A stretch of DNA of 64,000 bases, taken from NCBI GenBank assembly GCA_002690045.1, contig NZDE01000011.1, positions 400,582-464,581 of the forward strand, given 5' to 3'. Positions 25,091 to 64,000 of the stretch are shown here, piece after piece. The DNA is from Alphaproteobacteria bacterium (lineage in GTDB: Bacteria > Pseudomonadota > Alphaproteobacteria > Micavibrionales > Micavibrionaceae). The notes under the pieces were generated by a model that had not been told where the DNA came from, ran no database searches, and saw only the letters and a list, made by a program, of their open reading frames with translations. The stretch's first letter is position 1, and every line of letters begins with the position of its first letter. The position numbers and the translations under genes are program-made.

Positions 25091-27538
25091 ATGGCAACAA
25101 GACAAGAACAAAGACGAGCACAAAGAGAAGCCGCTGCACAGCGTCGCGAAGATGAAGCGATTGAAGACGCAAGAGACGACAATGAATTTGTTGCCGGCGG
25201 CATAGCTGGCGTCAGCACAATTCCTGTCCACCTTATGAATGATGCAGAATTTGCCGCATTTGTTGCTCAGCAAAAAACACTAAACCCAAACATGACCGAT
25301 GCGCGTGCAAACGAACTGCGCCAAGAAGCCTTAGATGACGAAGACCTGCTTAATGACAACGGCATACTGAACGTAGCTGCGCAGCAAGCCGCACGCGCAG
25401 AGTATGATGAAGATGCACAAAGACCTAAATTAGCAGGCCAAATACGCCGACAACAACGCGAAGAGCGCGCAGAAGCCGCCGCCGAGAATCGTCGCAATGA
25501 AGCTATCGAAAACGTTCAATTTGTTGAGTTGGACCAACGCGTTCCTTTACATTTAATGAACCCAGAAGAATTCCAAGATTACGTGGCACAGCAACAAGCC
25601 ATCAACCCGCAGATGACGCAAGCCCGCGCGGAACAGTTATTAATGAACGCATATGATGAAGAAGGCCTACTAACACGTAACTCGGAAGGCCAAATCGTAA
25701 TTGACGTTGAAGAAATAACGCAAGAACGCGCCGAGTTTGATCGACCAAAGCCAAACAATACGCGCGCAGCTGCACAGGCAAGAATAAATGAATCTCGTGC
25801 GGAGAGAATGGTCGATAACAGCATTGAAGAAGCAAATGAAAAAATGAAATTTGTCGCTGGTGCAAGCAATATACCTGTACACCTAATGGATGATGCACAA
25901 TTTGAATCCTTCGTCAAACTTCATAAAGATCAACTTGTCCCTACAATGACAGATGAACGTGCAAATTACTTGCGTAACGAAGCCATTGTCGAAGCAGGTT
26001 TCGGCACCAAGAACGCAAATGGCACTTACACAATAGATCAAGCACGCCTTAACCAAGCGCGCGCAGATTTCGTTCCGGGTGAACCAACACGTCTTCAACA
26101 GCGTCTTCAACCGCAGCAGCCTACAGGGGGTGAAGGCGTTGAGGTCAGCCAAATACCATTACACCTAATGACAGATGATGAATTTAGGGATTACTTACAA
26201 CAACAAGCTGTATTTGACCCCAATTTTGATATGGCACAACTAATGGATCAACGCATGCAAGCCCAGATCGACAATGGGATTGGTAGCATCGACAGCAACG
26301 GGTCATTCACGGTAGACCAAGAAAAATTTCGTCTCGCGCGTGAACGATTTGATGCTCAACTCGCTGCGCAAAATGGAAACAATACACCACCGCCGCCAAC
26401 AACAGATCAAAATACAGATAATCAAAGCGGTATTGGCGGGCTGTTTGCTGGCATTCAAGAATTTATTAAAGGCATACAAGAGTTCATTCAACAAATCATC
26501 CCCGCGATTGGTGGCAATGGTGGTATGTTTGGCAGCAAAGCACGCGCAGCGACGACTACACCTACGCAGCAATCGCAAACAAGCACTAACACGCCTACGC
26601 CGCAACCTTCACAGCCGCAGCTAACGCCGCAGCAGCAACGTGAAGCCACGTTAACACAGCAACATAGCGGTTATCAGCAAGGCACTTTACAGGCTATAAC
26701 CGATGGCAGTTTAAGTTTCGCTGCGCTAGATACAAGTAAAGTTGACTGGGACCGTGATGAAATTATTAAAGGTGATGCGGATCTAGAACGTGTTTATAAT
26801 GACAATATTGCCGCTGGCCTAGATGGCGGCACAGGCGGCCTGCTTCATATTGATGAAGATGAAGGCCTACTCTACATCAATAAAGATGCCAATGGTGACA
26901 TTACGGCGTATCGTGTGAATGATCACATCAATGATATTCCTAATCTGAACGACCTTCCTATGTCATCGTACAGCATTCAAGGTTTTGGTAACGCCATGAA
27001 GGTCAATGACCTGCATACATCAGGCTTTAATGCACAAACAGGTATGATTAAAACCGTTGCCTTTGAAGATGGCTGGATGGATGGCAAAGATCTTAAGAAT
27101 GAAGAGTTACAATTCCATGTACAGGTTGATGGGCAGGGGCGCTACAGTGTTTCAGTCATTAATGACAACTATCAGCAAACAAACGACCCTCAATTGAACA
27201 GCGCGGCAGGACAAACCTTACAGGCTGTACTTCAAGAAGACCCAGGTTTTGATTATTACGCCCAAGGTAAAGATCCAATCAAAGAAGGCTTGTTTGACCC
27301 TGCACAAGGGAACAACAAATGGGGCAATGCTGTAGCGAAGGGTATTCAAGATGCGGGTGGCATTATTGAACGCTCCATACAAAATGGCGTACATATCCAT
27401 GTTGGTGATGGCAATCCACAAATCCGTATGGGGAACTATAATAACGGCCCAACGGTGCAAGACCGCTATAACCAGCTTAGCCAAGAAGCAGAAGCAAGCG
27501 CGCGCGTTAAAGGCATTGACCTTGGCGGGGGTAATTAA
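25091..27538 (+). CDS. Unknown large protein with four N-terminal repeats
   Basis: An 815-residue acidic, Gln/Asn-rich protein that I do not recognise. Four degenerate units begin with the hallmark IPVHLM or VPLHLM followed by an acidic residue and F (HLM at 47-49, 154-156, 264-266 and 358-360; spacing 94-110). Each then has a Met-Thr/Ala-rich helix and a run of charged residues ending near ARAEF or RARADF. Between about 424 and 540 lies low-complexity Pro/Thr/Gln sequence with an amphipathic Gly/Ile stretch (446-474). The remaining 275 residues form a soluble Asp/Gly-rich domain with no motif I know. No signal peptide exists. AGAGGG precedes the ATG by seven bases. Its stop overlaps that of rlmB by four bases. 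Confidence 0.72.
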   Translation: MATRQEQRRAQREAAAQRREDEAIEDARDDNEFVAGGIAGVSTIPVHLMNDAEFAAFVAQQKTLNPNMTDARANELRQEALDDEDLLNDNGILNVAAQQAARAEYDEDAQRPKLAGQIRRQQREERAEAAAENRRNEAIENVQFVELDQRVPLHLMNPEEFQDYVAQQQAINPQMTQARAEQLLMNAYDEEGLLTRNSEGQIVIDVEEITQERAEFDRPKPNNTRAAAQARINESRAERMVDNSIEEANEKMKFVAGASNIPVHLMDDAQFESFVKLHKDQLVPTMTDERANYLRNEAIVEAGFGTKNANGTYTIDQARLNQARADFVPGEPTRLQQRLQPQQPTGGEGVEVSQIPLHLMTDDEFRDYLQQQAVFDPNFDMAQLMDQRMQAQIDNGIGSIDSNGSFTVDQEKFRLARERFDAQLAAQNGNNTPPPPTTDQNTDNQSGIGGLFAGIQEFIKGIQEFIQQIIPAIGGNGGMFGSKARAATTTPTQQSQTSTNTPTPQPSQPQLTPQQQREATLTQQHSGYQQGTLQAITDGSLSFAALDTSKVDWDRDEIIKGDADLERVYNDNIAAGLDGGTGGLLHIDEDEGLLYINKDANGDITAYRVNDHINDIPNLNDLPMSSYSIQGFGNAMKVNDLHTSGFNAQTGMIKTVAFEDGWMDGKDLKNEELQFHVQVDGQGRYSVSVINDNYQQTNDPQLNSAAGQTLQAVLQEDPGFDYYAQGKDPIKEGLFDPAQGNNKWGNAVAKGIQDAGGIIERSIQNGVHIHVGDGNPQIRMGNYNNGPTVQDRYNQLSQEAEASARVKGIDLGGGN

Positions 27539-52883: not shown

Positions 52884-53471
52884 TCATTCGTTATATATAT
52901 GCTCGCCCTTTACTTTTATGTCCGTTTCTATCTTGCGATCTATTTTTGCACTATGCTCCTCTTCCTCAATATAAAAGAACTTACTCTGCGCCTTTTTCTC
53001 GTCACTGCGTTTGTACACGTAAATGCCAAGGACGGATAAGGCAACCGCCCAGATCGTACCGAGGCTTTCAATCGCTTCGATGACTAGAATCGCTTCGCGT
53101 GTGTTGAAAATCATAATATAGGCCACGCCGAACATTTGCGCCGCCCATGTTAGCGCCATTAAATAACCGAATGTTGGGCGCATACGGCGGACATAAGGGT
53201 CGTTAGAGGCAATTTCCGCGCGCAGGGACTTGTTGACCTCCCCCGCTAATTTAGTTTGCTCTTCTATCTTCAGGCGGGCCATTTCTTCTAAATGACGGTT
53301 GGCTTCGCCCAGCGCCTCCCCGCTTAATCCGCCAGTGTTAATTGTGTTTTGTAAGTCATCAAGGGCATCCGCCGTTGTTTGCGCGGATGGATGGTTCACA
53401 CCGCGCAATACGCCCGATACAATTTCTACCAAAAATGGCAGGCCAAGCTGCGCTAATATATTTATTGCCAT
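52884..53471 (-). CDS. 3TM phage holin (gene-transfer-release type)
   Basis: A 195-residue protein with an N-terminal hydrophobic helix (about residues 4-20) and two transmembrane helices (about 103-122 and 130-152), separated by a soluble stretch with TTADALDDLQ and a Lys-rich stalk; the C-terminal tail is charged and ends near HIYNE. This resembles the Holin_3TMP family of phages and gene-transfer agents. It would make lesions in the inner membrane so the endolysin can reach the cell wall. AGAGGAC precedes the ATG. The endolysin gene is 18 bases upstream. Confidence 0.82.
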   Translation of the reverse strand: MAINILAQLGLPFLVEIVSGVLRGVNHPSAQTTADALDDLQNTINTGGLSGEALGEANRHLEEMARLKIEEQTKLAGEVNKSLRAEIASNDPYVRRMRPTFGYLMALTWAAQMFGVAYIMIFNTREAILVIEAIESLGTIWAVALSVLGIYVYKRSDEKKAQSKFFYIEEEEHSAKIDRKIETDIKVKGEHIYNE

Positions 53472-53489: not shown

Positions 53490-53993
53490 CTAAACATTGA
53501 CCAGACGGTAAAAGATATGCCGCCCAAGTACGGCGGTGGGTTTGTTGTCTTTTACCCAATATGGGCTGCTTATGCTTGCCGCGTGATAATGGGTTGCGCC
53601 GCCCGTGACGTCTTCGCCTAATACATCTGCTACGGCGCGGCGGGCAATGCGGATGGCGGTGACGAAATAAATGTCGTTTTCTGCGCTTAACTGAATAAGT
53701 TTTGCGCGGTTAGGGTCATCTTTATTCCAACATGAAAACTGAAACGGTTTTTGGCAGATTTGGACGATATCATTGCCCCACCAATAACCGCCTAGTTTTT
53801 TGCTTATCTTCATACGGTTCAGGATGACCTGCGCAACGGCCTGCATACCGGCGCTACCCTCACCGCGCGCTTCGCCCCATAATGTGCGGGCAAGCGTATC
53901 CACGGCTATTTCATTGTAGAAATTCTGCGCTTTGGCGCGGTCTTCATTTTGTTTTGGCACAAGGCCAAACGGTTTTAAGGTACGTTTTTTCAT
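53490..53993 (-). CDS. SleB-like cell wall hydrolase (endolysin)
   Basis: A 167-residue protein dominated by a Hydrolase_2/SleB-type domain: LARTLWGEARGEGSAGMQAVAQVILNR with the catalytic Glu, FQFSCWN, and GATHYHAASISSPYW. The family cleaves peptidoglycan glycan strands. No signal peptide is seen, which fits release through the holin. The start at 53993 (MKKRTLKPFG) has GGGGA eight bases upstream; the longer frame to 54026 runs into the terminator region. A terminator stands 28 bases upstream, so this gene may begin a new transcript or depend on read-through. Confidence 0.88.
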   Translation of the reverse strand: MKKRTLKPFGLVPKQNEDRAKAQNFYNEIAVDTLARTLWGEARGEGSAGMQAVAQVILNRMKISKKLGGYWWGNDIVQICQKPFQFSCWNKDDPNRAKLIQLSAENDIYFVTAIRIARRAVADVLGEDVTGGATHYHAASISSPYWVKDNKPTAVLGRHIFYRLVNV

Positions 53994-54020
53994 TTTGATC
54001 CCCATGATGTGAACGTTAAA

Positions 54021-54050
54021 CAACAAAAAACGCCGCCCGAAGGCGACGTT
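54021..54050 (-). terminator. UUCG-loop terminator between the paralogue and endolysin genes
   Basis: On the minus strand AACGTCGCC, a TTCG tetraloop and GGCGGCGTT form a nine-pair stem (one G-T pair), followed by TTTTGTTG. A classic intrinsic terminator, inside the phage late region. Confidence 0.88.
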
Positions 54051-54082
54051 TTCAAAACTCTATATATTCTATTTGATTAGCT

Positions 54083-55009
54083 TTATTTCTTATTAAGCTG
54101 CGCTTTTAACCAACTATAACCTTTGCCCGTTGCACTAAGCGCTTTACCTGTATATTCCGTTGTAGCGCCAAGCAATTGACCACCGTAATGCTTCGTATAA
54201 GACGCCGTATTTTTGGGTACAGATACGCTTAAATTATAATCACCAATTTTATCGTTTAGTGCAGAAAGCGTCTTTTCGTCTTCCACGCGTGCATACACGT
54301 TTTGCACACGCTTAACGAGGATCTCATCAAGGATATGATTGCCGACATCAACGGCTTCTGCCCCTGAAATTTCAGCCATGGATTTAAGCATATCTTGCTG
54401 TTCTGCTTTTAGGCATAACACTTCTGCCGCTTCATCAGACGCAGCGACTTCAAGCAAGCCTTTATAATTTGCACGCACCAAAATATTCTCGCAACGCGCG
54501 TTATAATCATAGGCACCGATAAGGGCTTCATAATTCGCCTTATTGTCTATCTTATCGAGTGCTTCGAGAATTTTAGGGCTAGCATTAATTTCATCTAATC
54601 CCTTCATCGCTGTCGATAAACCTGTATAGACATTCACCAAATAATCATTAGCCTTTTTATCCGCATATAATGCGGTTTCAATCGCCGCTGTTGTATCAAG
54701 GATTAACTGCTTATCTGCTTCTACACGCAGTTTAACCAAAGCGCTACTTAGAACAGATTTCATTTGTTTTAACAAAACCGCGCCAGACGATACAAGGCCA
54801 TCTTCCGCGGCTTTGCCGACTAACATTTCATCCGCATAGATGGCATCCCACCCCGTGGCGGCAATAGCAACTTTATCTTGCAGTGCTTTGACTTGAAGGT
54901 CACCAGCCCATGTGTCCATGTGCTTAACGGAATCTGATATATCTGCCGTTTTATCTGCCACGCGTTGCCACGTTTTTGATAGCTTATCGCCTAATCCATT
55001 GAATTTCAT
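54083..55009 (-). CDS. Unknown helical protein, paralogue A (prophage)
   Basis: A 308-residue soluble, almost wholly helical protein, Ala/Leu/Lys-rich. It is a distant paralogue of the gene upstream at 55.1 kb: shared landmarks include YADEML (against YMDEML), ALIGAYDYNARC (against TLVKGFNYEQRC) and IGDYNLSVSV (against IGAYNLSMSV), plus a similar C-terminal tail with KALSATGKG. GGAGTGTGTAA precedes the ATG, nearly identical to that before the paralogue. No enzymatic motif visible. A phage moron is a fair guess; the UUCG terminator closes the transcript. Confidence 0.7.
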   Translation of the reverse strand: MKFNGLGDKLSKTWQRVADKTADISDSVKHMDTWAGDLQVKALQDKVAIAATGWDAIYADEMLVGKAAEDGLVSSGAVLLKQMKSVLSSALVKLRVEADKQLILDTTAAIETALYADKKANDYLVNVYTGLSTAMKGLDEINASPKILEALDKIDNKANYEALIGAYDYNARCENILVRANYKGLLEVAASDEAAEVLCLKAEQQDMLKSMAEISGAEAVDVGNHILDEILVKRVQNVYARVEDEKTLSALNDKIGDYNLSVSVPKNTASYTKHYGGQLLGATTEYTGKALSATGKGYSWLKAQLNKK

Positions 55010-55093
55010 TTTTTACACACTCCAAAATTAATTGTTATTTAAAAGCCGATATAGCAAAACCATATATTTTATACCAGCTTTTAAATCAGCCTT

Positions 55094-56095
55094 TTAGTCT
55101 GGTGTATTACCTTTATTGCGCTGTTTTGCGAACCAACCCAGCGCTTCACCAGCGATTGCCTTAGCACCGTTTGAAAGCTGTGCACTATAATGCGCAGCAT
55201 AAGCCATTGCATTTGACGACACTGACATTGACAAGTTATATGCACCAATATCTTCGCTTAGGTTATATAAAGCGTCTGCACTGTCTGCATCATAATCATT
55301 ACGGTACATATCAGGGGCAAGATAATGTTGCAAATGTCTCATAACAAATATACCTGTAGAAACTTTTTCCGATGCCGGTACATTACCTATTAGCTCATTA
55401 ATAGTTTCTTCTGCATGACAGGGCAAAGCTAAACCCGCTTTTTCTGTATGCTCACTTAACATGATTTCCGCAAGTTTCGCAGGCTTACATTTTGCAGCGA
55501 CTGCAGCGCAGCGCTGTTCATAGTTAAAACCTTTGACTAAAGTCTCAAATGTTTCTTTATTGCCGCCTTTTTCAAGGGCATCCATAACCTTTTTATTACC
55601 GCTTAAATCACTTATCTCTGCAATAGACAAACTAGTTAAATGATATGTATCGAAAAGCGCATTAACATCCAAGCCAGACTTCACATTTGTAACCTTGCCC
55701 AAGTTGATGATTGTTTCACCTAGCGCTTCGCCATCTTTAACGCCTGTAACGCGCGCCTGTGCCAATGTCAGCATATCTTTAATTGATGATAAAACGTCAA
55801 CGCCTTTCGCGCAGCCGCCCGCATCCTTGTCACTAACGCCATTAAGCATTTCATCCATGTAAACAGATAACCAATTCATAAGAGCTTGGTCCACGCGGCC
55901 GCGAATGGTATCAAGCTGAATTTTATTCGCTGCTATTGTCGGGTTTTCAGAAACCTCATCATATTTATCTTTTAGCTGCCCCGCTGCAACTTGTGCTTGG
56001 TCAGCAACTTGCTTGCCCATTTCAGTTGCTTTATCAACTGCATTGCCAAGCTTACCTTTTAATTTATTCAGATTTTCTTTATCCCAAAAGCCCAT
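55094..56095 (-). CDS. Unknown helical protein, paralogue B (prophage)
   Basis: A 333-residue helical protein, paralogous to the downstream gene. It begins MGFWDKENLNKLKGKLG, a helix rich in Lys and Ala (coiled-coil-like to about residue 55), then YMDEML, GFNYEQRC and IGAYNLSMSV, the shared landmarks. GGAGTGTGTAA stands directly upstream of the ATG, the same leader as the paralogue. The start at 56095 is favoured over GTG at 56107 on that basis. No known domain; cytoplasmic by sequence. Confidence 0.7.
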   Translation of the reverse strand: MGFWDKENLNKLKGKLGNAVDKATEMGKQVADQAQVAAGQLKDKYDEVSENPTIAANKIQLDTIRGRVDQALMNWLSVYMDEMLNGVSDKDAGGCAKGVDVLSSIKDMLTLAQARVTGVKDGEALGETIINLGKVTNVKSGLDVNALFDTYHLTSLSIAEISDLSGNKKVMDALEKGGNKETFETLVKGFNYEQRCAAVAAKCKPAKLAEIMLSEHTEKAGLALPCHAEETINELIGNVPASEKVSTGIFVMRHLQHYLAPDMYRNDYDADSADALYNLSEDIGAYNLSMSVSSNAMAYAAHYSAQLSNGAKAIAGEALGWFAKQRNKGNTPD

Positions 56096-56168
56096 TACAC
56101 ACTCCACTAGTTACCATAAGTTAAAATTCTGCGCAAAAGTTAACAAACTTTTAACGTTATGTCAAATA

Positions 56169-56480
56169 CTATTTTTGTCCCTTTAAGGCTTCTGTTTTTA
56201 ACGCCGTCTGGTCAAGCTTAGCCTCAATACGAAGCAAGTGACTGGTAAGACGATCCTCAAGGCTATGAACATGGGAAAGGCGAGCATAGGATTTTGCGGT
56301 TTCGAGTTTATGAGCGTTCAATCCATCGCGTAATTGCATGGTTCGCGCCTCAAGCAATGCTTGCATATCACGCAGCGCCATTTCTCCTTGCGTTTTTACG
56401 CGCCAGATGAGCCAGAATAACGCGCTCATCGCGGGAACATCAACAACCGATATCCACCATTGTAAATCCAATGTCGGCAT
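56169..56480 (-). CDS. Small membrane/coiled-coil phage protein
   Basis: A 103-residue protein with a single hydrophobic segment at the N terminus (about residues 5-26, WWISVVDVPAMSALFWLIW) followed by a long helical, coiled-coil-like tail rich in Lys, Glu, Leu and Arg. The layout resembles an Rz-type spanin or a small phage structural or membrane protein, but no specific motif supports either. It lies 18 bases downstream of the terminase gene on the same strand, an operon position. Confidence 0.65.
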   Translation of the reverse strand: MPTLDLQWWISVVDVPAMSALFWLIWRVKTQGEMALRDMQALLEARTMQLRDGLNAHKLETAKSYARLSHVHSLEDRLTSHLLRIEAKLDQTALKTEALKGQK

Positions 56481-56498: not shown

Positions 56499-57980
56499 TT
56501 AAACTGAAAAATCGCTATCGGCCATGTGTTGGCCGCCGCTGCCTTGCCATGCGGGGCGATGGCTGCGGCTGTGTGTGAGGGCGCGGATGCGGACGGGTTC
56601 GGCGGCAAGTGCGCCAGCAGCAGCATCTAGGCCATCATCATGTGCGCTAGTTTTTTCTGGTCGCCATTCTTGCATTTCACGGATGAAGGGCGTTTTGATG
56701 ACGCTATCATGAACATAGAGCGCCCGCGCCGCCATGACGGCATCAAAAGCCTCGATTATCCGCACGGCTTTCGGACGGCGGTTAGATAGCTCGATAACTG
56801 ACGTGGACACACCCGCCGCAGCTAACTCACGGCGGAGGATGTTGGGTAGAAAGCGGCCCAGGCCGTTAATCTCTATCGTAATTGACGGCAGCATTAATGC
56901 CGCGGCGATTTTGACGACTTGGCGACATTGCTGCGTAGCTTCGTCTTCGCTGCTACCGGCCTCGCTTTTGATATAGGCGCAGCGATGCAGGTAATAACGC
57001 CCCGCGTCATCACTAAACACAACCGCGAGGACGGAGCTATCGCCCTTCCCCTGCGCGGCGGCAAAGGCTGGATCCCAAAAGGCTGAACTAGACACAAGCC
57101 GCGTTCCGCCGAGCCATAATTGCGCGCGCCCTGCCGCTTGTTTATAGGTCAGCTCTTCATCATAGACCGTCAGATCTTCAGGATTAAGACGACCTTCATT
57201 GATGGACACAGGCTGCAACATCATCTGGCTTTGAAATTTATTGGGGCCAGTATGGGTTTTAATGCGGTCTATATCGGCGATGGTATAACGTTCCGGCCAT
57301 GCGGGTGCACCTTCGGGCGTAATGATAGGGCATAGCAAGCGTTTAAAGTCCTGTAGAAACGGTACATCTTCGCCAATTTCTTTGCGCGGCGCATCGGCAT
57401 AGATAGAGTAATAATGATGCGGCGTCCCGACATAAAGCCGTGTGCCGCCCTGCACGAGCACATAATCAATCTCAAGAAGCTTTTCGCGAAGATCAGCGCG
57501 TTTTTCGGCTGTGTCACAGGTTTTGGGCACTTCAACATCATCACATATAACTACCTCAGCACGGCTGCCAGTAATATTTGCGGTAATGCCCTTGGCCTGC
57601 ATAGATGGGTCGCGCTTTTCTTGGTCACGTTTAATGGTGAAGCGGTCAGACGCCCATTGTTCTTTCTTTTCTGGCAGTAAGTGCTGCGTCAGCATGTGTC
57701 GTTCGATGATTTTTTTGACATTGCGCACCATTTTGCGGGCGAGGTTTAAGTCAGCCGCGAGGACGAGAATGCGTAAGTTCGGATCAGTAAAGAGCAGCCA
57801 TGCACAAAACAGCCCGACAATGGTTGATTTACCGCAGGAGCGAAACGCCATCAGCAGTAAATAACGGTCATCATTTTTCCATGCTTGTTCCAACCAATGG
57901 GCAATACGGTAATGCACATCTGGCGTTGATAGGCCTTGCCCCCTGTTCCAAATGGTCAGGAACAGCGGGAATGAGATCAT
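56499..57980 (-). CDS. Phage terminase large subunit (T7 gp19-like)
   Basis: A 493-residue packaging ATPase-nuclease. Walker A-like AFRSCGKST (45-53) and Walker B VVICDD (143-148) form the ATPase, with coupling segment GTPHHYYS. The nuclease half carries FWDPAF (metal Asp) and DDGLDAAAGAL. The pattern FRSCGKST and the length match the T7-type DNA maturase/terminase rather than the lambda type. It cuts and pumps concatemeric DNA into proheads. A terminator stands upstream of it, after the gene at 58.1 kb. The small subunit is not recognisable in the window. Confidence 0.9.
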   Translation of the reverse strand: MISFPLFLTIWNRGQGLSTPDVHYRIAHWLEQAWKNDDRYLLLMAFRSCGKSTIVGLFCAWLLFTDPNLRILVLAADLNLARKMVRNVKKIIERHMLTQHLLPEKKEQWASDRFTIKRDQEKRDPSMQAKGITANITGSRAEVVICDDVEVPKTCDTAEKRADLREKLLEIDYVLVQGGTRLYVGTPHHYYSIYADAPRKEIGEDVPFLQDFKRLLCPIITPEGAPAWPERYTIADIDRIKTHTGPNKFQSQMMLQPVSINEGRLNPEDLTVYDEELTYKQAAGRAQLWLGGTRLVSSSAFWDPAFAAAQGKGDSSVLAVVFSDDAGRYYLHRCAYIKSEAGSSEDEATQQCRQVVKIAAALMLPSITIEINGLGRFLPNILRRELAAAGVSTSVIELSNRRPKAVRIIEAFDAVMAARALYVHDSVIKTPFIREMQEWRPEKTSAHDDGLDAAAGALAAEPVRIRALTHSRSHRPAWQGSGGQHMADSDFSV

Positions 57981-58066: not shown

Positions 58067-58597
58067 TTAGAACTGATTTGGATCAAATTTCTGACCTGTC
58101 GCTTTAGGCTTCTTCGGCGCGTCCACATCACCCATTTCTGCATCAGCTTGTGATTTTTTAGGCTGATCTACATCCACACCTTGTGAAGGCGTTTTATCTA
58201 AGAAATAGTGTTTAGCAAAGCCAATTGCGAACTGCGTGCCCTTACACGTTGCAGCCGCTGCAAATGTATTGGTCAGAAGCGTTGTGCCAAAAAGCCCCCA
58301 TGTTGAATATGCTGCGCCAATACCGGCAGCAAGAACCCCGACAGATACAGCTTTTTCAACTGGCGTCTTCGCCTTTGCAAACGGAGAGTATAGCACCTTG
58401 TTTACAACTGGGTTGTTGTGCGCATTGTATAATCCTACAGCTGTAACTACAGCAAAATCTTTGGCGCGTACAGCTAACTTGCCTAAGCCTGAAAAGAAGT
58501 TAAACACGTTTGTAAGCCTAGAATTTGACTTCTCTTGCGGGTCATTTTCTAAGTCTTTTAAAATATCTTCTGGTTGGTCTTTTTTTGGTGTGCTCAT
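58067..58597 (-). CDS. Unknown prophage protein, possible moron
   Basis: A 176-residue protein with a charged N-terminal head, two hydrophobic segments in its middle (about 85-110 and 110-125, Gly/Ala-rich) and a Lys/Pro/Asp tail. AGGTGAT lies four bases before the ATG, and its own terminator follows, so the gene is a self-contained insert between the tail-fibre side and terL. It has no recognised domain. Membrane-associated by prediction. Confidence 0.6.
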   Translation of the reverse strand: MSTPKKDQPEDILKDLENDPQEKSNSRLTNVFNFFSGLGKLAVRAKDFAVVTAVGLYNAHNNPVVNKVLYSPFAKAKTPVEKAVSVGVLAAGIGAAYSTWGLFGTTLLTNTFAAAATCKGTQFAIGFAKHYFLDKTPSQGVDVDQPKKSQADAEMGDVDAPKKPKATGQKFDPNQF

Positions 58598-58680: not shown

Positions 58681-58992
58681 TTATTTTATTTTTTCACTAT
58701 AATGATCTAATTCACTTTGTGCTTCGGCAATTAAACCCGCTAATAACGCGTCATCAGGATCTTCCTTGGCACGGTTATCCAATAAATCTGCCCATTTAGC
58801 AAGTTTAATTAATAATTCGATATGCGCGATGGCAACCTTGCAGGCACTATGATGCGCCGAAAAGCTTTTGGCATCTTCGGGCGCATCTTCGCTAAGGACA
58901 AAACGGTGGTAGGATTCCAGACTATGCTTAATCGCATCTGGTAGAAACTTGGCGATTTTATCACGTGAGGATTCCTCTAAAGACTTACTCAT
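58681..58992 (-). CDS. Small helical phage protein
   Basis: A 103-residue helical protein starting MSKSLEESSRDKIAKFLPD, with a run of Glu/Asp (AKEDPDDALLAGLIAEAQSELD). GGAAAGG precedes the ATG by eight bases, which decides against the longer frame to 59043. The size and place after the tail fibre suggest a small phage structural or terminase-small-subunit-like protein, but no motif shows it. Confidence 0.55.
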   Translation of the reverse strand: MSKSLEESSRDKIAKFLPDAIKHSLESYHRFVLSEDAPEDAKSFSAHHSACKVAIAHIELLIKLAKWADLLDNRAKEDPDDALLAGLIAEAQSELDHYSEKIK

Positions 58993-59018
58993 ATAAATAC
59001 CTTTCCGGATTAAAGGGA

Positions 59019-61046
59019 TTAGAAGCGCGAGACGATGTACCATGCCGCGCCGTTAGACACGACCGTGATTGCTTCATAGTGGCTTTTTAGATTCTGTGCA
59101 TAGCCATCTGGCCCACTGCCGCCCTGTTCACTCACCGTCACATAATTTGATGATGGGTCCGTCTTTTTGATGGTAATGACACGGCCCACAGCCTCGACCG
59201 CATCGGCAGGGGGAAGGCGTGCGGTTAGTCCCCCGCCGTAAGATGACAGCAGGTAAATATCGACAGCCATGTCAATATCATATGTGCCTGTCCCTTCGTA
59301 GAAACGCGTATTCCCCGCTGATCGGTTAGATGCAACAACATGCCACCCCGCCCCGTTAGACACCATGGTGACATAGTCATTTTCACCGCCAAGGAAGAAA
59401 TCAGCGCCATCAGGGCCATCACCGCCGCCTGCTTCGCGGATGGTGACAATATTGCCTGATATATCAATTTTCTTAACCGTTATACTGACCCCTTCAGCGG
59501 TGCTTGCCAAAGGCAGCTCCACCACCAACGCGCCACTGTAAGAGGACACCAAATGCACACTATGGGATAAATCAAGCGTCACTGTGCCTGACGTATCAAT
59601 ATATTCCGTGTCATAGCGCTGAAGCGTTGCCTTCATATCAGTCACAACGGTTTTTTGCATGAAATTCTTTTCTGGATAACCTGAATTATAGGCGGCATAT
59701 TTCCCGCCCGATAAATCCCATATCGCCGCGCCATCGGACACCGACAGCAGGTTGTAAATTCCCGTATCATCTGAACCGTTTTCTAGCTTGATATTCGGCA
59801 CACCATTTAAGCTTTCCGCATAGGGGTTAATCAGCAATGTTTTATAGGAATCTGCGCCGATGCGGAAACAGGCCTCCGCCGTGCCTGCAACGTTCGCCTC
59901 ACAATCGACAAGGCTGTTATTATATTGCCCCGCTTCAATATAAAATCCACTGCCTGTCGTTGATGTGCCATGCGAATAGGCACGGCAAGCGTGGAATTTA
60001 TTGGCGTTTGGCGTATCGCCCGCGCCGCTTTTGGTTAGGTGGAAGCCATGCAAGGTCATTTGTTCCACCAAGACACGGTCAAAATTATTCCAGTAACAGG
60101 GCTTGTTGGTATCATTATAACCATCGAGCTGCACCCCTGTCGCTGCGCCGATAATGCTGACATCACTGACATTACACTGCACACATGGACGGCTAACGCC
60201 ATAGAGTTTGAGGCCGATTAACCCGCCCTCAATTTGAATATCACGCAAAGTGATAAAATCCGCCGTGAGTGCGAGCGTAACGAAGCTATTATCTATCGCT
60301 TTCAAAACAGATGCTGCACCTGCGCCATAAAGCATTTGCCCTTCATCAAGGCTGATTGTGCTGCTTACCAAATACGTCCCTGCGGGCAAATACACGGTGG
60401 CATGCGCCGCCAAAGCCTGCTGCACGGCGAGCGTGTCATCGGTCAGACCATCCCCCGCTGCACCGAAGTCCTTCACCGAAACAATATCTGTGTTTTTATC
60501 ACTTGTTGTGCGCGTGACGGCGCCATAGCCTTGCGCCGTGTAATCAGGCGCGGCGGCGGCATTAGTCAGCTCGACCGCAATCGGGTCACCATTGCCATCA
60601 AAGCCAAGCGCTTTACCCGCGCGGATAGATTTGGCAGGCAGCTCCGTATTCGCGGTCGTCTCATGGTCAGCGTAACTTAGCATTTGCGATTGCTTGCGGG
60701 ACACTTGCTGCACCGCGCCGACCAGATAATCAAATTCATTATTAAGAGCGCGGGCGGATAAATCCCCACCTTCAATAAAATCTGTCACACGCTCAAGCGG
60801 TAATTCACGGGAGAGCGTAATTTGCAGACCAGATGTCGGGGCGCTGTCAAATTCTACATAGCCGCCTGCGGTAATACCGGCATCATAGACCATAAAACCG
60901 CTCGTTTGTTTCGCGCCGTTAAGATAGACTTTGACATCCTCATCCGCAAAAACGGGGAACGGGAAATCAAACCGCGTTTCCGAACCATTCGCCGTATAAC
61001 GTATAATCGGCGCGACATCCGGCATTTTAATATGATCACTGCTCAT
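59019..61046 (-). CDS. Tail fibre/tailspike with T7-type head and pectate-lyase-like beta helix
   Basis: A 675-residue protein. The N-terminal 130 residues match the T7 tail-fibre head (TANGSETRFDFPFPVF, LNGAKQTSGF, RELPLERVTDF), which joins the tail. A parallel-beta-helix (pectate-lyase 3-like) domain begins at SVKDFGAAGDGLTDD and runs to about residue 460. The C terminus ends in two tandem repeats of about 85 residues, each with SSY.G-L and GPDG and VSNGA-W landmarks. It probably binds and degrades a host surface glycan. AAGGAG stands six bases before the ATG at 61046; a longer frame to 61118 is disfavoured. Confidence 0.85.
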   Translation of the reverse strand: MSSDHIKMPDVAPIIRYTANGSETRFDFPFPVFADEDVKVYLNGAKQTSGFMVYDAGITAGGYVEFDSAPTSGLQITLSRELPLERVTDFIEGGDLSARALNNEFDYLVGAVQQVSRKQSQMLSYADHETTANTELPAKSIRAGKALGFDGNGDPIAVELTNAAAAPDYTAQGYGAVTRTTSDKNTDIVSVKDFGAAGDGLTDDTLAVQQALAAHATVYLPAGTYLVSSTISLDEGQMLYGAGAASVLKAIDNSFVTLALTADFITLRDIQIEGGLIGLKLYGVSRPCVQCNVSDVSIIGAATGVQLDGYNDTNKPCYWNNFDRVLVEQMTLHGFHLTKSGAGDTPNANKFHACRAYSHGTSTTGSGFYIEAGQYNNSLVDCEANVAGTAEACFRIGADSYKTLLINPYAESLNGVPNIKLENGSDDTGIYNLLSVSDGAAIWDLSGGKYAAYNSGYPEKNFMQKTVVTDMKATLQRYDTEYIDTSGTVTLDLSHSVHLVSSYSGALVVELPLASTAEGVSITVKKIDISGNIVTIREAGGGDGPDGADFFLGGENDYVTMVSNGAGWHVVASNRSAGNTRFYEGTGTYDIDMAVDIYLLSSYGGGLTARLPPADAVEAVGRVITIKKTDPSSNYVTVSEQGGSGPDGYAQNLKSHYEAITVVSNGAAWYIVSRF

Positions 61047-61152
61047 ATCAATTACTCCTTGAGTTAAAGTTAATTTTTGTATTCGAGATAAAAATATGGT
61101 CGCGCGTAGACGACCCATCGTCTCACGTTGAACTTCAACGGGCTTATAAAGC

Positions 61153-62344: not shown

Positions 62345-64000
62345 TTAGTCGTTGACTTTAATTTCCGATGTGACCGAGAGCAGTTTGAACGGCCGCGGGT
62401 CGGATTGTTCGATGCGCCAAAGCGGCTTGGTTAAGTCCCGCGCCCAGCCGAGGGAACGCAGGCGAATATCGCCGCTCATCACAGGTGGCGGCGCATCAAG
62501 GATGAGGTCTTCACCGATTTGTTTGAGCGGAACATCCTGCAAGCCGCGACCGATGTCGATGCGCATAGCTTGTGTTTCTTCGATGCGGAATAAGGCTTCG
62601 ACCAAACGAATGGCGCGTCCGCCGCCGCTTTCACTGATAAGGTTTGGTGGAAGTGGTTCAACAATATGCGTAAAGCTAAGGCCGATTTGCACATTGGTTG
62701 CCGCGACTGGCAAGGTGATGCTGCCGCTCGCCACTAATATCGTATCAAGACGAATGTCATCAGCGAGGATGTCAACATACTGTCCATCAAGATGGTCAAG
62801 GCCGCTCCATACCGTTGCGGGGGCTTCGCTTTCTCCGGCGAGGCTTGAATCCATAAAGCTTTCATCATCGAAACGCTCAATAAGATAATCCCCGCCGCGT
62901 TCAACTAGCATATAGACATCATCGCCGACCACAGAAATTGATTTCACATTGCCGAGCGTGTCATGCACCGTCCATGCTGCGACTTGTTCCGCGCGATATA
63001 CGGTGAGCGTCGCAAATTTACCATCACCACGGGCAATGAAGAGCAAGCGGCGTTTCTTATCATAGTCTTGGTCGAGCGGGTCTTTGATAATATGACGCGA
63101 CAGCAAGGCAAGGTCGGTTGAGGAATAGGCTTGCTCCACATCGGTATAAAGAAACTCTCGAATTTCCTGCAAATTACGGGCAACGAATAAAGTTGCGCCA
63201 TCAACGTCAATTGGCGGGATATAGCGTTCAATGGCTGAACCGATACGCGTCTGGCGCAGCAATTCAACGGTTGATGGCGTTAGGGGCGAACCCGTGACCA
63301 TCCATTCCGCACCGCTGGTGAAGACTTGTAGGTGACGGCCAGAGAAGACAGCGCGAATGGCGTTAACCTGATCCGACAAAATCGCGAATTCGATGGCTTC
63401 GTCATCAAGACCTTCACCGAGGTCAAAATTAAACAGATCCCCTGATTTAGAAAACCAGATACGGTTGGGCAGGTCGCGGCTGCCGCCAATGACCAATCGA
63501 TCCTGATGGAAGGCGAGCGTCACTGGATAACCCCGCGCAGGTGAAAATGCCTGTTCCTGCCAATCAATTGTGGCTGCTGTATCAATTAGATTTTCCTGTG
63601 TTTCAACGGTAACGACCGTGGCGGAATCATAATCCGTCACGAGGACTTCTTTACCCCCCACACGCAGGCGGGTATTTTCATGCAGCAAAGTGAAAACGGG
63701 CGCTGACGCCGTCAGGGTGATAGTCCCTGATGTACCCGATGGGGTGAGCGTCACCTGCGCACCTGCAAATTTATAGTAAGGCTGATAATTGCGCCCGCCA
63801 TCCTCAAAGAAACTCCAGTCCTGCAATGCCCAAGAGGCATCCGAGAGGCGCAGCAATTGTTTAGGCGGATAATCTGGGTGTGCGAGCAATAATGTATCGG
63901 CTGATTGCGTCCAAGCGAGCTGTTTAATATCCGCTTCTGGCCATGGTGAGGCCACGCTCGTCACCAAAGTATCTTCCAGATAGATGGATATTTTTAAGTC
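62345..64000 (-). CDS. Phage tail nozzle/tail tubular B (gp12-like) protein, 5'-partial
   Basis: The frame is open to the right edge of the window, so the start lies outside; 551 residues are visible. Characteristic segments are QSADTLLLAHPDYPPKQL, FHQDRLVIGGSRDLPNRIWFSKSGD split over strands, and GAEWMVTGSPLTPST, which fit the nozzle (T7 gp12-like) protein at the tip of a podovirus tail. A beta-rich, largely repetitive fold. It is followed by the gp14-like gene 36 bases downstream. The open frame means the true N-terminus is unknown. Confidence 0.85.
   Translation of the reverse strand, partial: DLKISIYLEDTLVTSVASPWPEADIKQLAWTQSADTLLLAHPDYPPKQLLRLSDASWALQDWSFFEDGGRNYQPYYKFAGAQVTLTPSGTSGTITLTASAPVFTLLHENTRLRVGGKEVLVTDYDSATVVTVETQENLIDTAATIDWQEQAFSPARGYPVTLAFHQDRLVIGGSRDLPNRIWFSKSGDLFNFDLGEGLDDEAIEFAILSDQVNAIRAVFSGRHLQVFTSGAEWMVTGSPLTPSTVELLRQTRIGSAIERYIPPIDVDGATLFVARNLQEIREFLYTDVEQAYSSTDLALLSRHIIKDPLDQDYDKKRRLLFIARGDGKFATLTVYRAEQVAAWTVHDTLGNVKSISVVGDDVYMLVERGGDYLIERFDDESFMDSSLAGESEAPATVWSGLDHLDGQYVDILADDIRLDTILVASGSITLPVAATNVQIGLSFTHIVEPLPPNLISESGGGRAIRLVEALFRIEETQAMRIDIGRGLQDVPLKQIGEDLILDAPPPVMSGDIRLRSLGWARDLTKPLWRIEQSDPRPFKLLSVTSEIKVND

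Follow-up and report, generated by a model that had tools for sequence, protein, structure and literature searches.

A probable moron pair in what looks like a vertically inherited, podovirus-derived gene cluster of Micavibrio relatives

Two adjoining genes in a stretch of alphaproteobacterial DNA of 64,000 nucleotides (the window) encode related proteins of no recognised family and stand among phage packaging and lysis genes, and the question is what such a pair is doing there. A first-pass annotation of the same DNA had placed the two genes in a prophage and proposed that they form a moron pair. The genes, here called A and B, and the signals around them are:

55094 to 56095, minus strand: gene A, an open reading frame for a helical orphan protein of 333 residues, paralogue of B, with orthologues in genomes G001 and G002
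54083 to 55009, minus strand: gene B, an open reading frame for a protein of 308 residues, paralogue of A, with orthologues in G001 and G002
56137 to 56165, minus strand: promoter-like box TTGACA-N17-TAACTT upstream of A, its spacing kept in three species
56095 to 56105, minus strand: leader GGAGTGTGTAA of A (ribosome-binding region), from a genome pattern search
55013 to 55023, minus strand: leader GGAGTGTGTAA of B, from the same search
54026 to 54053, minus strand: terminator-like hairpin after B, with a TTCG loop, 12 pairs and a T-run

The products of A and B were aligned by BLASTP over 316 columns at 26% identity (87 bits, E 5e-24), so that the paralogy claimed for them was detected by pairwise alignment, and the landmarks said to lie at matching places (D-E-M-L, Y-x-x-R-C and Y-N-L-S-x-S-V) all align between the two. 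The alignment of the A and B proteins from three species of the genus (that of the window, G001 and G002) has 28 invariant columns, and D-E-M-L, R-C and Y-N-x-S are invariant across the six proteins; in two alignments the B row of G002 starts 12 residues late and that of G001 starts at an upstream TTG. Gene A has an alternative GTG start at 56107, which would add 4 residues. In a tree of these proteins the A clade and the B clade were separate (support 100/100), and the duplication therefore predates the three species. The same leader, GGAGTGTGTAA, was found ahead of both start codons, as had been noted before, and a search of the 2.88-Mb genome of the window returned exactly 2 copies, the leaders of A and B (reversed control pattern, 1). 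GGAGTGTGT is common to the leaders of A and B in G001 and is absent from both leaders in G002.

The position between terminase and lysis genes given in the first-pass annotation was right on the downstream side, where the endolysin gene follows B; upstream, the direct neighbour of A is the 103-residue gene p103, which lies between the gene for the terminase large subunit (TerL) and A. The surrounding cluster contains:

52884 to 53471, minus strand: holin, GTA_holin_3TM (PF11351, 36.0 bits, cut-off 24.8)
53490 to 54026, minus strand: endolysin (Hydrolase_2, SleB-like; PF07486, E 7e-20; phrog_938), downstream border of the slot that holds A and B
56169 to 56480, minus strand: p103, small core gene of unknown function (phrog_29007), upstream border of the slot
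56499 to 57980, minus strand: TerL (phrog_38, E 2e-84)
58067 to 58597, minus strand: p176, fast-evolving gene in a second slot, p120 to TerL (GC3 0.373; hairpin 58044 to 58018)
58681 to 59043, minus strand: p120, core gene of unknown function upstream of the second slot (phrog_31793)
59019 to 61118, minus strand: tail fibre (phrog_1640 and others)
62345 to 64000, continuing to 64243 in stretch L012, minus strand: tail tubular protein B-like (phrog_376)
beyond tail tubular B, in stretches L012 and L013: tail tubular A, capsid, scaffold and portal (phrog_394, phrog_3437, phrog_3742, phrog_332)

The virion module spans about 21 kb, from 52505 to about 73394 in window numbering (past 64000 in L012 and L013), and by PHROG and Pfam it contains head, tail, packaging and lysis genes of a short-tailed phage. 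The holin family, described in Pfam as 'Holin of 3TMs, for gene-transfer release', was matched once in the genome of the window and in none of 14 control genomes. PHROG and Pfam recognised no integrase or replication gene (p170, p122, p98, p101 and p176 are without family), and no tRNA was found in L012, in L013 or near the cluster in the window.

A PilZ-domain gene (PF07238; L012:17596-18015, plus strand, corresponding to 67014-67433) lies on the opposite strand between the scaffold and capsid genes and is kept in 16/16 of the loci among L044-L063 whose stretch reaches the capsid gene; a cyclic-di-GMP link of the cluster through this gene is possible. The other end of the cluster is adjoined by an S24-type repressor-like gene (L013:4087-4722, plus strand, corresponding to 73505-74140), through which it might be connected with the SOS response; this gene has a BLAST relative near the cluster in several Azospirillum loci. 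Elsewhere in the window, 25091-27538 (plus strand) encodes an 815-residue protein with about four copies of an IPVHLMxDxEF-like segment in its N-terminal half, as judged by eye.

In the window the promoter-like box lies 3 nt beyond the stop codon of p103, and TTGACATAACGTTA stands at the end of that gene in all three species; in G001 and G002 TTGACA shares bases with the stop codon. Owing to this overlap, part of TTGACA may be kept for the sake of p103, which does not hold for the bases beyond; TAnnnT is found 17 bases past TTGACA in each species (TAACTT, TAATGT and TAGTTT). The box was not listed by a generic promoter scan, which found 10 sites against 12.7 in shuffles, and since the scan did no better than shuffles it is conservation that serves as evidence for the box. 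Its 14-mer has one exact copy in its own genome and 35 matches with up to 2 mismatches (23 for the reversed control). At the other end of the pair, the UUCG-loop terminator reported earlier was confirmed as a terminator-like TTCG hairpin with a T-run; 6.7 kb contain 11 such sites (8.6 expected from shuffles), and this one has the longest stem. A hairpin follows B in all three species, with a TTCG loop also in G001 and of another kind in G002.

Control by CtrA was considered and rejected. TTAA-N7-TTAA, which we take to be the CtrA motif, is present upstream of A, B and the capsid gene in the window and upstream of A and the capsid gene in G001, the capsid copy overlapping the ribosome-binding region in both; it was found in 3/59 Micavibrio-like and 0/21 other capsid upstream regions, and TTAA spacings of N3, N6 and N8 were each found in 3/59, the same frequency as N7.

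Between species, the orthologues of A and B share 37-74% identity, with both frames intact in all three. The dN between the window and G001 was 0.372 for A and 0.315 for B, against 0.034 for TerL, 0.024 for the capsid gene and 0.006 for tail tubular B; p176 (0.367), p449 (0.372) and, past the holin, two further genes (0.605 and 0.364) are equally fast, so that A and B do not stand out by their rate alone. In the same comparison dN of A is well below its dS of 1.75, a value near saturation, and dS of B was not computable. The GC3 of A and B (0.34 and 0.38) is lower than that of six core genes (0.47-0.54). The A protein of the window is 74% identical to that of G002 and 55% to that of G001, a kinship opposite to that of TerL (77% and 95%, respectively), and either allele exchange or faster change in G001 would fit. 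The fast change and the odd kinship of A would also suit a component that interacts with a variable partner, for instance a protein of a phage or particle.

Of the 142 genomes of the order, 3 were found to contain the two genes, and these belong to a single genus; a fully listed search for relatives gave no further member of the A/B genus. No relatives of A or B were found in three IMG/VR scans, in 50,697 phage records, or in 385 genomes of the class and 398 of the phylum besides their own; a class-wide match at E 0.006 contains stop codons and was taken as chance. The surroundings of TerL were fetched for 80 further loci of other genera (20 + 60), p103 being recovered by profile in 70 of them, and the gap between p103 and the endolysin gene was measured where both were recognised and in order (65/80). 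This gap was ≤80 nt in 57 loci, 149-207 nt in 4 and >450 nt in 4; it is 4 nt in L155, whose TerL is nearest to that of the genus on the tree. The four long gaps (L045, L047, L159 and L195) all belong to genus g29 and hold other genes, with a hairpin and T-run near the downstream end in 4/4. By profile search no protein of the fetched loci from other genera, those in the g29 slot included, was significantly related to A or B. The pair occupies this slot in G001 and G002 as well, and was not found at the junction in the fetched loci of other genera. Three of the 15 loci outside the rule have gaps of 686-1357 nt (L168, L181 and L213), and the first ORF in L213 may be a diverged p103.

The second slot exceeds 350 nt in 21 of the 70 measurable loci of other genera, and p176 is probably another insert. 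TTGACA was found within 120 nt of the upstream gene in 14/25 inserts from both slots of other genera (0.99 in shuffles; 158/5850 windows elsewhere in the same loci), a count that includes doubtful cases in the second slot (L177 has no listed ORF, L208 seems to be a piece of TerL, and a few have opposite-strand ORFs only). Pfam gave no family for ten inserts from both slots in other genera, and a PADLOC search with six inserts of such slots in other genera gave only weak partial matches (best E 0.0019). In L195 (G121:C83) both slots are filled, with two small proteins in p103-endolysin and two in p120-TerL; one of the latter is DnaQ-type exonuclease-like by eye and had no Pfam match.

The absence of A and B at this junction elsewhere, the promoter-like box, the hairpin, the lower GC3 and the unrelated genes in the g29 slot support the moron pair of the first-pass annotation. 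As judged from this anatomy, A and B are likely to be a moron inserted in a GTA-like cluster.

The term prophage probably does not suit the carrier: no integrase or replication gene was recognised, and the cluster looks vertically inherited and GTA-like, and not like a phage that integrated recently. TerL was found in 103/142 genomes of the order, mostly as one match per genome and with a few fragments or weak matches, and in 77/98 of the better genomes; a few genomes have a second match, which in G133 is a second full-length relative. On a tree of 81 TerL sequences, of whose 78 inner branches 32 were unresolved, the 38 genus labels compared within the order required 37 changes, the minimum, against 66.6 on average for shuffled labels; 12 of the 15 largest groups required one change, and g29, g23 and g8 required two. 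In 20 loci of other genera the core genes come in the same order wherever the stretches cover them; BLAST with the window proteins missed p103 in three of these loci, p120 in at least three and the fibre in two. The neighbours of the cluster are the same in G001 as in the window on both sides, and in G002 on the side that its contig reaches; in 11 of the 20 loci of other genera the same gene, presumably folD, lies downstream of the holin. The dS was 1.1-1.9 for portal, TerL, p103, endolysin and holin and 0.9-2.0 for the flanks where computable, and was lower than in the flanks from PilZ to p120 (0.23-1.0), perhaps through exchange. Within the order these results point to long vertical inheritance of the cluster, which, judged by its genes and this mode of inheritance, looks like a podovirus-derived, GTA-like element of Micavibrio relatives; the names in a second collection also put the group among these relatives.

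Beyond the order, a capsid match was found in 90 of 372 sampled genomes of the class (57 at 53-100% identity, 33 at 25-38% and none between, counted by eye), and the carrier is a candidate podoviral GTA whose reach may be wider than its order. Azospirillum, Defluviicoccus and Niveispirillum are among the best 80 of 435 loci with relatives; within these 80, the capsid relatives of Azospirillum have 70-75% identity. Azospirillum particles with random 10-kb host DNA are reported in PMC3899980. An IMG/VR scan gave 354 relatives, of which 80 were retained, and this indicates that such stretches are filed there as viruses. In one of them, L215 (IMGVR_UViG_3300020417_003383), the capsid protein is 100% identical to that of the window, and this record is probably a piece of bacterial DNA, from the same species or a very close one, that was entered as viral. 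Related capsids were also found in phages, at 47.6% identity in Pelagibacter phage Hodr and 62% in an unannotated faecal phage record.

The proteins were modelled with AlphaFold2 from six sequences, giving a mean pLDDT of 80 and a pTM of 0.76 for A and of 75 and 0.72 for B. Both are predicted to be all-helical with similar folds, which agrees with the earlier description of helical proteins; the core helices come in similar order, and the ends are poorly predicted. The N-terminal helix is amphipathic (highest moment 0.51 in A and 0.64 in B, window proteins), and no sign of a membrane-spanning helix was seen in the six proteins, whose top 19-residue Kyte-Doolittle mean is 1.14. Pfam, PHROG, NCBIfam and PADLOC gave nothing convincing or above chance for A or B: no PHROG match was better than E 0.39, and PADLOC gave 0 families at E up to 1 for either. 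A sequence search of the PDB gave one match, a C-type lectin chain at E 0.011, taken as chance. Foldseek with the model of A gave no match at E ≤0.001 in the PDB or among viral models, and the best viral match, a podoviral tail fibre (E 0.003, TM 0.15), was likewise taken as chance. The best VIA-align match of the model of A had Z 8.5 over 86 residues, many helical proteins reaching Z 5-7, which according to the tool's own note is common with helical models. The idea of a two-component helical pore-former (ClyA and XaxB both appear at Z 5.0) was set aside, since the Kyte-Doolittle maximum shows no hydrophobic hairpin in the six proteins.

The carrier could still be an ordinary temperate or defective prophage, with A and B an ordinary prophage moron and its spread the result of repeated infection by related phages. 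Such a reading would account for the fact that every recognised core gene is a phage gene, for the related capsids in Hodr (48%) and in the faecal phage record (62%) and for the S24-type gene adjoining the cluster, but it sits badly with the lack of a recognised integrase or replication gene, of a tRNA in either of the two stretches L012 and L013 or close to the cluster's window part, and with TerL in 103/142 genomes, mostly as single matches. The 37 changes for 38 genera are the minimum, the neighbours are kept in G001 and, as far as its contig reaches, in G002, and one downstream neighbour is common to 11/20 loci of other genera; this reading is accordingly considered quite improbable.

The same cluster could also hold A and B as particle parts or regulators peculiar to the genus (ejection, decoration, lysis timing), made with the late genes and not independent cargo. 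The two genes do lie on the late-gene strand and at a late-gene place, adjoining the lysis genes, the pair is retained in all three species, and helical proteins are common among ejection proteins. Related clusters of other genera nevertheless do without A and B, the hairpin parts them from the endolysin gene and the box from p103, and the best PHROG match was no better than E 0.39, which makes this proposal unlikely. That A and B are passengers without a role and heading for loss would agree with their fast change, low GC3 and narrow distribution, yet is very hard to credit when both frames are intact in three species despite 37-74% identity, 28 columns are invariant and, between the window and G001, A shows a dN (0.37) much lower than its dS (1.75, near saturation). 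With anatomy and function weighed together, an accessory moron pair with a role for its GTA-like carrier is the best explanation, and is held with moderate confidence.

For this probable moron pair, which separates the core genes p103 and endolysin, the anatomy of the slot suggests that A and B are expressed independently of the late genes and serve the carrier while it lives. The box would drive A and B separately from the late virion genes, and the proteins would be made in cells that do not lyse. They would be soluble, helical and cytoplasmic, and the amphipathic N-terminal helix may touch the inner membrane. Their most likely function would be to protect the carrier, by exclusion or self-protection, and less likely to tune particle production or lysis; exclusion of, or protection against, particles or phages is put forward as a tentative assignment.

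Phage morons are lysogenic-conversion genes with their own promoter and terminator. A and B are like them in lying between conserved late genes with a box, a hairpin and a deviating base composition, and in being absent from close relatives of the carrier; they differ in that the carrier looks domesticated and not like a temperate phage, and in that their expression and benefit are here proposed from sequence. In common with RcGTA and BaGTA, the alphaproteobacterial type I and II GTAs, described in PMC9662315, the cluster is phage-derived and seems to be inherited with its host, and its holin belongs to Pfam GTA_holin_3TM; it is set apart from them in that its tail genes are of the short-tailed, tail-tubular type. 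The best families for its TerL and capsid are phrog_38 and phrog_3437. FpGTA of Faecalibacterium is described in PMC12946183 as a GTA-like element of podovirus-like morphology that occurs almost throughout its host genus. It is likened to the present cluster by that description and differs in having a Gram-positive host and observed particles with packaged DNA, the cluster here being known from its genes. Pelagibacter phage EXVC031P Hodr and related podophages have a related capsid, but Hodr is recorded as a phage, and A and B are in none of the 50,697 phage records. Among the open PMC papers listed, as judged by title and opening of the abstract, none describes an alphaproteobacterial GTA of podoviral type.

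GTAs are viewed as pared-down devices under host control. If the present reading is true, the presence of insulated and replaceable genes in a GTA-like cluster that is passed on vertically would show that these elements continue to acquire morons. The pair gives a hint that a possible DNA-delivering particle, the candidate podoviral GTA, has exchangeable cargo genes. In its widest form, which we regard as possible rather than probable, Micavibrio relatives, and probably many other Alphaproteobacteria, would carry an unrecognised podovirus-type GTA with at least two slots (p103-endolysin and p120-TerL) dedicated to cargo, small insulated genes being exchanged there by the lineages, and A and B would be cargo that protects producers from their own or foreign particles.
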